Source: a gamma proteobacterium symbiont of Taylorina sp.
GTDB lineage: Bacteria; Pseudomonadota; Gammaproteobacteria; GRL18
DNA: 64,000 bases
Assembly (NCBI GenBank): GCA_025655455.1
Contig: JAHXIV010000026.1
Coordinates: forward strand, 1 to 64,000
Direction: 5' to 3'
Positions 3,902-9,692 of this stretch are shown piece after piece; position 1 is the stretch's first letter; each line of letters begins with the position of its first letter. A program made the position numbers and the translations under genes. Under the pieces are notes generated by a model. It searched no databases. It was not told the DNA's origin and was given only the letters and a program-made list of their open reading frames with translations.

Positions 3902-4303
3902 TTATTCAGAGATCCAGTTTTCCACAATAAGATTAGGAACCCTGTTAAATTCTCCAACATTATTTGTAACTAATATATGTCCCAAACTTCTTGCATGTGC
4001 TGCAATTAGTAAATCATTATTTCCAATGGAGGTACCTTGTTTTTTAAGTATTGCTCTTATAGACCCATAATGTTTAGCAGCTTCCTCATCCCAAGAGTCA
4101 ATAAGTAATCTTTGAGTAAACAAGGTAAGTTCATCCCATCGAGCTTCTCTTTTAGAGCTATCCCCATTCTCAATGCCAAAGCACAGTTCACCATATGTTA
4201 CTGAAGATATGCAAATATTTTTAGTAACCTTAAATTTATGCCGTAGCTTGTTTGAATGTTTTTTTAAAACATAAATACAAATATTTGTGTCGAGCATATA
4301 CAT
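3902..4303 (-). CDS. vapC: VapC toxin, PIN-domain ribonuclease
   Basis: A 133-residue PIN-domain ribonuclease toxin, a Mg-dependent enzyme usually cutting tRNA or rRNA. Acidic active-site residues are visible in MLDTNICIYVLKK (D5), SSVTYGELCFGIE (E at about 40), IGNNDLLIAAHA (D at about 97) and the late TNNVGEF where many members have D. The ATG overlaps the VapB stop by one base. Together they fill a cassette that lies in reverse orientation to its neighbours, so it must use its own promoter. Confidence 0.92.
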   Translation of the reverse strand: MYMLDTNICIYVLKKHSNKLRHKFKVTKNICISSVTYGELCFGIENGDSSKREARWDELTLFTQRLLIDSWDEEAAKHYGSIRAILKKQGTSIGNNDLLIAAHARSLGHILVTNNVGEFNRVPNLIVENWISE

Positions 4304-4536
4304 TAATCAAAATTCCGTTCTTGTGGCAAAGTATCCAATCTATCTTTTAAAAAATCATCATCAAAGCTAGATTTAGAGTCAAAAAAATCATCCCATGTTG
4401 GTTTTTTTGCAGAAATTATGATATTTTGTCCTTGCTTTGTAATGTATACTTCATCAGTGTCAAAACGATATTCCTTAGGTAAACGTACAGCTTGGCTACG
4501 ACCATTCATGAAAATTTTGGCTATTTGAGCATCCAT
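4303..4536 (-). CDS. vapB: VapB antitoxin (AbrB/MazE fold)
   Basis: A 77-residue antitoxin with the swapped-hairpin AbrB-type DNA-binding domain at the N terminus: AKIFMNGRSQAVRLPKEYRF followed by DEVYITKQGQNIIISAKK. The acidic tail (DDFFDSKSSFDDDFLKDRL) is the VapC-binding part. A strong ribosome site AGGAGA precedes the start. Upstream, the 24-bp inverted repeat at 4554-4577 is a likely operator for the VapBC complex. Confidence 0.92.
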   Translation of the reverse strand: MDAQIAKIFMNGRSQAVRLPKEYRFDTDEVYITKQGQNIIISAKKPTWDDFFDSKSSFDDDFLKDRLDTLPQERNFD

Positions 4537-4624: not shown

Positions 4625-4711
4625 AACATAACCAGCGTTTGCTCGTGGACAATTTGGTCATCAGCTGAAAAAACGCTGATGACCAAATTGCCAGAGAAAC
4701 GGACGTTAGAT
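4625..4711 (+). repeat. attC site of the vapBC cassette
   Basis: AACATAAC (4625-4632) mirrors the cassette start GTTATGTT at 3885. The arms AATTTGGTCATCAGC and GCTGATGACCAAATT form a perfect 15-bp stem around AGCGTT-like outer bases, and R' GTTAGAT is at 4705. Confidence 0.9.
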
Positions 4712-5023
4712 GCTAGTCATAAGAAAATCAATTGCACCAAGTATTTCATACCTAAGATTTTCCAGAGAAGTTACTCTTTTCTTAAGCATTGTTTTGGGCA
4801 TGGATGTCATTTGGTGAGTAAGTAGTACAAACTGTTCACCATTAATATTAATTATTGGACAAAGCTTTTTTGCATTAGTTTGGTTAAGGGCGTTATGTGT
4901 TGATAGAGGTATTACAATTCTAGAGTTGAGCTCATCAAAAAAATCGTTTTGTACATCAACAAGATAAGGATATATTTTTTTTGAACTTTTGTTTTCATTT
5001 TTATAAAGTGTAAATTGGCTCAT
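4706..5023 (-). CDS. ccdB: CcdB-family gyrase-poisoning toxin
   Basis: A 105-residue CcdB-like toxin, which traps DNA gyrase on cut DNA. Matches to the family are YPYLVDVQNDFFDEL, SRIVIPLSTHNAL, LCPIININGEQFVLLTHQMTSMP and a C-terminal helix ending GAIDFLMTSI; in CcdB the C-terminal tryptophan-glycine-isoleucine contacts gyrase, and here only the isoleucine is kept. The stop codon TAA (4706-4708 on the minus strand) is made of the first three bases of the cassette next to the attC crossover. The start overlaps the antitoxin's last base. Confidence 0.88.
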   Translation of the reverse strand: MSQFTLYKNENKSSKKIYPYLVDVQNDFFDELNSRIVIPLSTHNALNQTNAKKLCPIININGEQFVLLTHQMTSMPKTMLKKRVTSLENLRYEILGAIDFLMTSI

Positions 5024-5343: not shown

Positions 5344-6137
5344 AAGGGCTTGCTCGCGCCAAGATAAATCCGAAATCTTGGGAGTGGATTAACCCTCCGT
5401 GAAATTGGTTGATGTTACTCAATGGGTGAGAATCCCATCAGACTAAAGCTTTATCGTGAGGTTTGTCGATGATTTCATCATTGGTTGCGAACACGAAGCC
5501 GATGCCCGTCGAGTCATGGAAATTCTTCCCAAACGATTTGGTCGCTTTGGACTGACAATTCATCCAGACAAAACGGTATTAGAAGCGTTCAGAAACCCCG
5601 ACAGGAAACTGAAGGGTGAAGTGAGAAATGGTACATTCGACTTTGTTGGATTTACTCACTACTGGGCGAAATCCCGAAAAGGGAACTGGGTAATAAAACG
5701 CAAGACGGTAGGCAAACGACTAAGACGAACGATAAAATCCCTCTGGATTTGGTGTCGCAATAATCGTCATATGCCGGGAAAAGAGCAATATCAGATATTT
5801 TGTTCCAAATTACGGGGACATTTTCAATATTATGGTGTTCGATGTAATATGCGTTCAATGGAAAAGGTATATGAACAGGCAAAAAGAACCTGGCGATATT
5901 GGTTAAGCAGAAGAAGCCATACCGGAAAGGTCATCTGGGAAAAATATGAGCTTTTTCTGAAAAGAAATCCTCTACCATTGCCCCGAATTATTCACACTGT
6001 CTAAAGCTTGCAGGGTAGCTAAAGTTATGTGTCAATAGAGTACCGAACTACTGATTACTGAGGAACCGGATGAGGGAAATCTTCACGTCCGGATCTGTGG
6101 GGGGATTGGCCGGGCAACCGCTGATTCTACCCGGAAT
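5344..6137 (+). mobile_element. truncated group II intron inserted in the ccdAB attC
   Basis: The insert splits an attC: its R'' core ATCTAAC is at 5337-5343 and its other arm and R' lie at 6135-6246. Inside are a short 5' intron segment containing the conserved GGGTGAGAATCCCATC element (5423-5441), the 3' half of a reverse transcriptase, and at about 6060-6100 a domain V-like hairpin (ACCGGATGAGG, GAAA loop, CTTCACGTCCGG). Domain I-III and the N-terminal half of the protein are deleted. The catalytic triad of domain V appears as AAC instead of AGC. Ends are approximate. Confidence 0.75.
5447..6004 (+). pseudogene. ltrA: group II intron reverse transcriptase/maturase, C-terminal half
   Basis: The open frame begins in the middle of the reverse-transcriptase core: FIVRFVDDFIIGC carries the catalytic double aspartate (YADD motif, here FVDD), followed by the thumb (GLTIHPDKT and FDFVGFTHYW) and the maturase X domain with LRGHFQYYGV and the C-terminal RSHTGKVIWEKYE. 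Roughly the first 200-250 residues are missing; the frame is stopped at 5444 where intron RNA sequence begins. A GTG at 5456 can open it but there is no ribosome site. The fragment cannot be an active polymerase. Confidence 0.9.
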
Positions 6138-7069: not shown

Positions 7070-7098
7070 TTGAAAAACAGCCTCATCAGTTGTACAAT
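7070..7098 (+). promoter_or_regulatory. predicted sigma-70 promoter, probably leaderless vapC transcript
   Basis: TTGAAA (7070-7075) and TACAAT (7093-7098) are 17 bases apart. Transcription should start at about 7105-7106, at the A of the vapC ATG. The hexamers are identical to those at 2115-2143. Confidence 0.7.
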
Positions 7099-7498: not shown

Positions 7499-7717
7499 AT
7501 GAAAGTATTTACTTATTCAGAAGCCCGTCAAAATCTTTCAAAATTGTTACTACTTGCCCAAGGGGAAGAAGTAGAAATCCGTAGAAAAGATGGTGCTGTT
7601 TTTTCATTAGTTTCAAAAATAAAAGAGAAAAAGTCACCTTTTGATGTTCCCGGAATAAAAACTAAAGCAACAATGCAAGATATTTTAAATGCAGTTCAAG
7701 ATTCAAGATCAAGCTAA
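7499..7717 (+). CDS. Phd/YefM-family antitoxin
   Basis: A 72-residue antitoxin with the Phd/YefM N-terminal DNA-binding fold: VFTYSEARQNLSKLLLLAQGEEVEIRRKDGAVFSLVSKI. The C-terminal tail, with DVPGIKTKATMQDILNAVQDSR, is the toxin-binding region. It is the second gene of a VapC/Phd-type pair inside one cassette, ending against the attC core GCTAAC at 7713, which overlaps its last codons. Its translation is probably coupled to the toxin because only three bases separate them. Confidence 0.88.
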   Translation: MKVFTYSEARQNLSKLLLLAQGEEVEIRRKDGAVFSLVSKIKEKKSPFDVPGIKTKATMQDILNAVQDSRSS

Positions 7718-7840
7718 CCAGAGCATCCAATTTAAAAAGTGGTCGATTCGCCTTCTTAAAATGAGGAATCTTGGTTTAACTTGTGTCGCCCTCGAAAGTT
7801 CAGTGGAACGACCACTTTTAAATTGATGCTGATGTTGGGC
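7713..7840 (+). repeat. attC site of the vapC/phd cassette (long subfamily)
   Basis: The core is GCTAAC (7713-7718), the arms are ATCCAATTTAAAAAGTGG and CCACTTTTAAATTGAT, and R' is GTTGGGC at 7834. It is nearly identical in the arms to the sites at 1965 and 8865. The core mirrors the cassette start GTTATGC only loosely. Confidence 0.88.
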
Positions 7841-8273: not shown

Positions 8274-8282
8274 GTTATAAAT

Positions 8283-8343
8283 CGCCAACAAGTCACTCCA
8301 GCACATTCCGGTCAGCTGAATTTGGTGTTGGGCATAATAAATA
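8283..8343 (+). repeat. attC site of the membrane-protein cassette (about 60 bp)
   Basis: A classic short site: GCCAAC (8284-8289) and R' GTTGGGC (8337-8343) are complementary and bracket CAAGTCACTCCAGC and TCAGCTGAATTTG arms of weaker pairing. The cassette start at 7834 is also GTTGGGC. Confidence 0.75.
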
Positions 8344-8355
8344 CAGGAGACAATA

Positions 8356-8628
8356 ATGCCAACAATTTCTATGTTTTATGGCATTCTCATAAGAATGTTT
8401 TTCTACGATACAGATAAACATAATTTGCCACATATACATGCAGATTACCAAGGAGAAGTTGCAGTCTATGCAATCAATGATGGAAAGTTATTAGCAGGAA
8501 AATTACCTGCCAAGAAAAATAAATTAGTTGTTGCATGGATTGAAATTCATAAAGAAGATCTTCTTGCTGACTGGGAATTGGCTGTCAATGGTAAAAAACC
8601 TTTTCCAATTCGAGGACTTGACCAATGA
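8356..8628 (+). CDS. DUF4160 protein, possible toxin-antitoxin component
   Basis: A 90-residue protein of the DUF4160 family: PTISMFYGILIRMFFYDTDKHNLPHIHADYQGEVAVYAI has the conserved FY.D...HxxPHxH signature (residues about 18-30). The function is not established; the conserved histidines could bind metal. It has a good ribosome site (AGGAGA) and overlaps the following DUF2442 gene by four bases (ATGA). DUF4160 and DUF2442 genes are often adjacent in bacteria, which suggests a two-component module, possibly toxin-antitoxin, in this toxin-rich array. Confidence 0.85.
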   Translation: MPTISMFYGILIRMFFYDTDKHNLPHIHADYQGEVAVYAINDGKLLAGKLPAKKNKLVVAWIEIHKEDLLADWELAVNGKKPFPIRGLDQ

Positions 8629-8888
8629 AAATTTCTACTATCTCCCCATGTAGCAACTACATATTAAAGGTTGTTTCAGATGATGGAAAAACAGGGTATT
8701 TTGATATAAGCCCATATTTAGATTCTGAGGCTTTTGCTGAATTAAAAGATAAAAAAGAATTTGAGCGTTTCCATAATGGTGGTTACTATATTGAGTGGGA
8801 ATGTGGTGCAGATTTATCATCAGATACCATTGAAGCACACTGGAGTGATGAGTTGCATACAAATGCCCAACAAAAGCATCCAATTTAA
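8625..8888 (+). CDS. DUF2442 protein, partner of the DUF4160 protein
   Basis: An 87-residue DUF2442 family protein with the features VVSDDGKTGYFDISPYLDSEAFAELKD, FERFHNGGYYIEWECGADLSSDTI. The last residues (CPAQQKHPI-like end) are encoded by the attC R'' core GCCCAAC at 8865, so the C terminus is written by the recombination site. It is translationally coupled to the DUF4160 gene. In this family the role is unknown; DUF2442 proteins have been suggested to bind DNA or partner proteins. Function here is inference from cassette context. Confidence 0.85.
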   Translation: MKISTISPCSNYILKVVSDDGKTGYFDISPYLDSEAFAELKDKKEFERFHNGGYYIEWECGADLSSDTIEAHWSDELHTNAQQKHPI

Positions 8889-8993
8889 AAAGTGGTCGAT
8901 TCGACTTCATAAAATTAGAAGTTTTGGTTAAACTTATGTTGTCCTCAAAAGTTCAGTGGGACGACCACTTTTAAATTGATGCAGGCGTTGAGG
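8865..8993 (+). repeat. attC site of the DUF4160/DUF2442 cassette (long subfamily)
   Basis: The core GCCCAAC (8865-8871) is the exact reverse complement of the cassette start GTTGGGC at 8337. The arms ATCCAATTTAAAAAGTGG and CCACTTTTAAATTGAT pair, and R' is GTTGAGG at 8987. Confidence 0.9.
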
Positions 8994-9415: not shown

Positions 9416-9531
9416 TTCAGAAATTTCCATATGGCATTATTTATCAGTACATGGAAGCTCAGGAAGAAATCTTAATTGTTGCAGTTTCTCATTTGCATCG
9501 TATACCAGATTACTGGTCAGAGAGAGAATAA
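9412..9531 (+). pseudogene. C-terminal fragment of a ParE/RelE toxin
   Basis: Thirty-nine codons encode LVQKFPYGIIYQ and IVAVSHLHRIPDYWSERE, closely matching the last third of the toxin at 1632-1922 (LVNRFPYGVLYS and VAVMNLHRHPDYWKDR). The N-terminal two thirds, and any antitoxin, are absent; the frame joins the previous pseudogene at 9412. Only a remnant of a former toxin-antitoxin cassette remains. Confidence 0.8.
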
Positions 9532-9692
9532 ATAACATAACGAATAAGGTTAGAGGACGATAAGTGATAAGTTTAGCTAACTAGCTGTTGTTGTTATACT
9601 TGGTGATGAATAATCACTGCCTGGAATATTTCCCCTAATCCTCCTGCTCCTACCTTACTAGAACCTCAACGCCATACATAAGTAATGAGCTC

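Follow-up and report, generated by a model that had tools for sequence, protein, structure and literature searches.

Two small open reading frames (ORFs) on the plus strand, at positions 8356-8888 of the 64,000-nucleotide stretch of DNA analysed here (the window), sit in an array rich in toxin-antitoxin (TA) pairs, and the question raised by this locus is whether they form a TA module of their own and, if so, of which kind. The first ORF (8356-8628, 90 aa) matches DUF4160 (PF13711, E 1.1e-23, 83.6 bits against a Pfam cut-off of 23) and is a putative dhiT-like toxin gene. The second (8625-8888, 87 aa) matches DUF2442 (PF10387, E 1.6e-10, 41.5 bits against a cut-off of 23.9) and would be a dhiA-like antitoxin gene whose product is without a helix-turn-helix (HTH) domain. 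The coordinates first given for the two ORFs are correct; both are intact, and all invariant residues of the family are retained. The toxin stop codon and the antitoxin start codon share a four-nucleotide ATGA at 8625-8628, an overlap by which translation of the two genes is probably coupled, and the region 8341-8355, with an AGGAG motif within it, presumably holds the ribosome-binding site of the toxin gene.

The original prediction regarded the pair as a candidate undescribed TA system. The TA reading is very likely right, but the family has been described: the DUF4160/DUF2442 pair of Dickeya dadantii was named dhiTA in 2021 (PMC8198452), a pair from Thermus plasmids followed in 2025 (PMC12724237), and NCBIfam holds curated models for both DhiT and DhiA. 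The D. dadantii toxin gene comes first, is co-transcribed with the antitoxin gene and overlaps it by 3 nt according to the paper's table; over-production of DhiT inhibited growth of both D. dadantii and E. coli, production of DhiT together with DhiA did not, and the promoter was repressed by the antitoxin as well as by the complex (PMC8198452). The Thermus pair raised plasmid persistence, and AlphaFold 3 predicts that its two proteins form a heterodimer; a plasmid without the second gene (DUF2442) gave no T. thermophilus transformants, and deletion of the first gene was tolerated (PMC12724237). The behaviour of DhiTA modules varies nevertheless, since the Thermus pair was without effect in E. 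coli (PMC12724237) and a test plasmid was not stabilised by D. dadantii dhiTA (PMC8198452). Toxicity and rescue are thus experimental findings made in homologues, and by analogy with these the window copy may be active as well. The earlier remark that the activity of the pair is not established holds for the toxin's biochemical activity only, growth effects having been published for the homologues.

How closely the window pair resembles the named systems differs between its two halves. Domains, toxin-first order and an overlap of a few nucleotides are shared with dhiTA of D. dadantii 3937, and the NCBIfam model toxin_DhiT (NF048015) is matched by the window toxin over practically its whole length (positions 1-82 of 84, 94.3 bits, E 5.1e-27), a score below the equivalog cut-off of 100, which makes the protein a family member rather than a strict equivalog; the same model is matched by 60/60 diverse relatives. 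The DhiA model, in contrast, is 160 aa long, and the 87-aa window antitoxin, which is without its C-terminal half, matches it weakly, over positions 4-69 only, with 19.8 bits against a cut-off of 200. It is therefore not a DhiA equivalog, although this leaves the TA claim unaffected, and a full-length DhiA cannot define the DUF4160/DUF2442 family, because the D. dadantii member has the 160-aa form and the Thermus member one of 92 aa. The persistence-enhancing module (PEM) of T. thermophilus pIOK1/pIOK9, with a DUF4160 gene (87 aa) followed by a DUF2442 gene (92 aa), has a short antitoxin as here (PMC12724237), and DUF4160 proteins encoded on T. thermophilus plasmids, possibly those of PEM, share 41.6% identity with the window toxin. 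Unlike the window pair, which lies in an integron array, PEM is plasmid-borne, comes from a thermophile and has no reported integron array. Neither window protein was matched by PADLOC, and matches in PHROGs carry no function.

To the experiments on homologues, the present analysis adds homology, linkage, conservation, selection among relatives and the absence of the HTH domain. DUF4160 is carried by 77 and DUF2442 by at least 80 of 274 sampled genomes of the same class. That the two domains recur together, as originally proposed, was borne out by gene-neighbourhood statistics: for at least 90 of the best 100 DUF4160 matches in class genomes, DUF2442 follows on the same strand within 400 nt (it lies upstream in 2), and a DUF2442 ORF directly follows DUF4160 in 79 of 80 relatives from the genome collection, seven of these neighbours having been recognised by motif rather than by automatic ORF choice (L087 being the remaining locus). 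The same 4-nt overlap is found in at least 62 of the 80; in nine, mostly belonging to a 63-66% identical subgroup, there are gaps of 4-14 nt instead. Toxin and antitoxin distances are correlated (Mantel r 0.54; all 1000 permutations gave lower values, with a maximum of 0.45). Purifying selection acts among close DhiTA relatives, dN being well below dS in close pairs except in one comparison with almost no changes to count; dS is saturated against the window copy itself, and the selection test rests on the close relatives.

The distribution of the pair is patchy. Relatives of 63-87% identity occur in Gammaproteobacteria, Nitrospira, Chlorobi, Lentisphaerae, Chloroflexi, Bacteroidetes and others, phylum assignments among which some binning errors are likely because most are metagenome-assembled genomes. 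In the window's own genus, a match is present in only 2 of 16 genomes. Such a pattern is as expected for a mobile accessory module. Besides the pair in the window, its genome carries three more DUF4160/DUF2442 pairs, four in all, at C78:3671-4170, C14:93730-94245 and C34:48578-49143; their toxins share 39-42% identity with that of the window or are more distant. A DUF4160 fragment was also observed at C14:95015-95077.

The conserved histidine signature noted at the outset, HNLPHIHADY, occupies residues 22-31, and its core H22-x2-P-H26-x-H28 proved near-invariant in relatives down to about 24% identity, H22 and H26 being present in 60/60 and H28 in 59/60. M1, P2, W61 and L69 are likewise found in all 60 toxin sequences, an acidic residue usually stands shortly before H22, and the conserved residues of the window toxin comprise H22, P25, H26, H28, W61, L69 and W73. 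An AlphaFold2 model of the toxin (pLDDT 93.2, pTM 0.86) comprises five strands and two helices; H26 and H28 alternate on the strand 26-31, and H22 sits in the loop immediately preceding it. When the PDB was searched by sequence, neither the toxin by itself nor a profile of 60 members gave more than chance-level matches, Foldseek found nothing at E 0.001 or better for the model in the PDB and among viral models, and the best Z in a VIA structure comparison was 4.6, in the range of common arrangements. A new fold does not follow from the lack of a solved structural match.

That the histidines bind metal, as the original prediction suggested, is plausible. A serious alternative, to which we would give somewhat less than an even chance, is that DhiT is a metal-independent nuclease or an RNA-binding translation inhibitor in which the histidines act in general acid-base catalysis and not as metal ligands. 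RNase activity is the commonest mode among small type II toxins, which speaks for this alternative, as do the three near-invariant histidines themselves, since no acidic triad is as conserved as they are. On the other hand, structure and profile comparisons detected no similarity between DhiT and known RNase toxins, an absence that excludes nothing, and a metal site is equally compatible with the motif. The HxxPHxH cluster would most likely serve the toxin as its active site or as a metal site.

The antitoxin belongs to a domain family with a solved structure. Its DUF2442 domain is that of NE0471 (PDB 2AUW) of Nitrosomonas europaea, matched by profile at E 3e-4, and the DUF2442 part of the relative L143 superposes on 2AUW with a VIA Z of 11.4 (rmsd 2.5 over 79 residues). 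An HTH domain is added to this common fold in NE0471, a putative DNA-binding protein, whereas Pfam finds no HTH domain in the window antitoxin; antitoxins at loci with the same 4-nt overlap measure 70-101 aa. DUF2442 is joined to an HTH in the relatives L143, L150 and L153 from the viral collection and, more weakly, in L163 and L164, and these HTH domains resemble TA regulators such as HipB. As the window antitoxin is without the DNA-binding half, transcriptional autorepression of the D. dadantii type, in which DhiA represses its own promoter, is not expected here.

L143 (1203-1943, on a viral-collection contig) is itself a natural single-chain protein of 247 aa with the order DUF4160-DUF2442-HTH_3, and a ribosome-binding-site-like AGGAG precedes its internal antitoxin start. 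Structure prediction of the fusion gave a pTM of 0.53, with the domains well modelled and the interface unreliable; toxin tails were misplaced in the underlying alignment. The protein is nonetheless a candidate for structural work. A second fusion-like ORF, of 187 aa, was noticed at L155:2983-3543, its start lacking the usual N-terminus. A search of the class genomes yielded no open frame long enough for a toxin-antitoxin fusion, and fusions were found in viral contigs only. Another unusual relative, L119, carries glutamine in place of H26 (HNPPQFHAEY), with no adjoining DUF2442 found; it is possibly an inactive toxin freed of its antitoxin.

The surroundings of the window pair agree with the earlier description of an array rich in TA pairs. 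Domains of such pairs lie in the first 8 kb. Unstab_antitox is found at 1360, RHH/ParE at 2177-2727, MazE/PIN and CcdB on the minus strand at 3902-4536 and 4706-5023, respectively, and PIN at 7070 with a Phd-like antitoxin at 7499; the RHH and Phd matches score below their cut-offs. The array also contains a group II intron match (RF00029, 6061-6136), with an ORF resembling a reverse-transcriptase fragment just upstream (5456-6004). The segments 1859-1929 and 9468-9538 are 70% identical; the first is the end of a 102-aa partner of Unstab_antitox, and the second resembles what is left of a decayed gene of that type.

That this array is an integron is suggested by attC-like sites on the plus strand. 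The site 3' of the pair (8865-8993, R'' GCCCAAC ... R' GTTGAGG) folds as a single strand with a z of -4.7, none of 200 shuffles being as stable, and codes for the last residues of the antitoxin (AQQKHPI). The genome has seven near-full-length copies of this repeat, the other six being 84-88% identical to the site at 8865-8993; one lies on the contig of another DUF4160/DUF2442 pair (C78), and another, 86% identical and with a fold z of -3.4, ends the preceding cassette (7712-7839). A further long attC-like repeat is located at about 1970-2090. Where the cassette begins is less certain: its 5' boundary is either the well supported site 7712-7839 or a possible short attC at 8279-8333 (CGCCAAC ... 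GTTGGGC), which was picked out by eye and folds no better than shuffles (z 0.26). In the relatives L018 and L024, GTTGGGC also precedes the toxin start by 28 nt. Around the relatives, attC core boxes are modestly enriched, upstream in 10/73 against 3.0 expected and downstream in 14/73 against 4.2, figures obtained from relaxed scans since a strict attC pattern missed most sites, and some of the relatives, not all, would thus travel as cassettes. Two integron integrase genes scoring above the TIGR02249 cut-off of 265, with 420.8 and 342 bits, are encoded in the same genome on contigs other than the window's (C62:4148-5089 and C24:64118-64954). A literature search found no paper joining DUF4160 with integron, cassette and toxin-antitoxin. 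The carriage of TA genes as chromosomal integron cassettes is known from the Vibrio cholerae superintegron. The window pair is very probably a type II TA module of the DhiTA family that forms part of a chromosomal integron array.

Large chromosomal integrons leave most of their cassettes unexpressed, and the DhiTA homologues in the window might have ceased to act as a TA module, as a silent or degenerate cassette lacking, for instance, a promoter. Only about 29 nt lie between the possible cassette boundary GTTGGGC and the start of the toxin gene, and the region of the pair has no more promoter-like matches than shuffles do (5 versus 5.6); TA cassettes of V. cholerae have been reported with promoters of their own, whereas none is evident at the window pair. 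We nevertheless consider silencing improbable. TA cassettes, unlike most, usually carry promoters, one could lie further upstream in the same cassette given that the short 5' attC is weakly supported, and both ORFs are intact with their invariant residues complete, close relatives being under purifying selection. An intact new member of the DhiTA family that is probably functional within its integron context remains our reading. Two attC-like hairpins, at 7802-7816 and 8955-8969, resemble intrinsic terminators on the plus strand (2 found versus 0.8 expected); attC sites could end cassette transcripts here.

It is very improbable that the pair is instead a small regulatory or metal-binding module with a stabilising partner, the toxicity of homologues being an over-expression artefact: DhiT activity is without biochemical definition, the Thermus pair is ineffective in E. 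coli and the fold has no PDB match, but the partner rescues in two systems unrelated to each other, of which one is a plasmid that carries the module itself, and the TA-like neighbourhood, the toxin-antitoxin-HTH fusion and the HipB-like HTH domains all speak against it.

From these data, a working model of the DhiTA module can be proposed. DhiT, the DUF4160 product of the first gene, would be a small growth-inhibiting protein, and DhiA, the DUF2442 product of the second, would be produced together with it owing to the ATGA overlap and would neutralise it by direct binding, in line with the heterodimer predicted for the Thermus pair. RNA or a translation-related component is the best guess for the target, because filamentation was not reported on over-expression of the toxin in D. 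dadantii (PMC8198452). The balance between the two proteins would probably be kept by translational coupling plus read-through or an upstream promoter. A more far-reaching view is that DhiT founds a toxin fold without a solved relative, with a three-histidine site and a chemistry new to TA toxins, that it has spread across many phyla partly as integron cassettes, and that coupled translation alone keeps these in balance, with no DNA-binding antitoxin involved; as a whole, we regard this as rather unlikely.

With the TA status of the family settled, the value of the finding lies in the mechanism of the toxin, where the invariant HxxPHxH motif, together with a confident model that no solved structure convincingly matches, points to residues that can be tested directly. 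The window pair itself, coupled, HTH-less and carried in an integron, provides a simple case of how a TA module may survive without classical autorepression.
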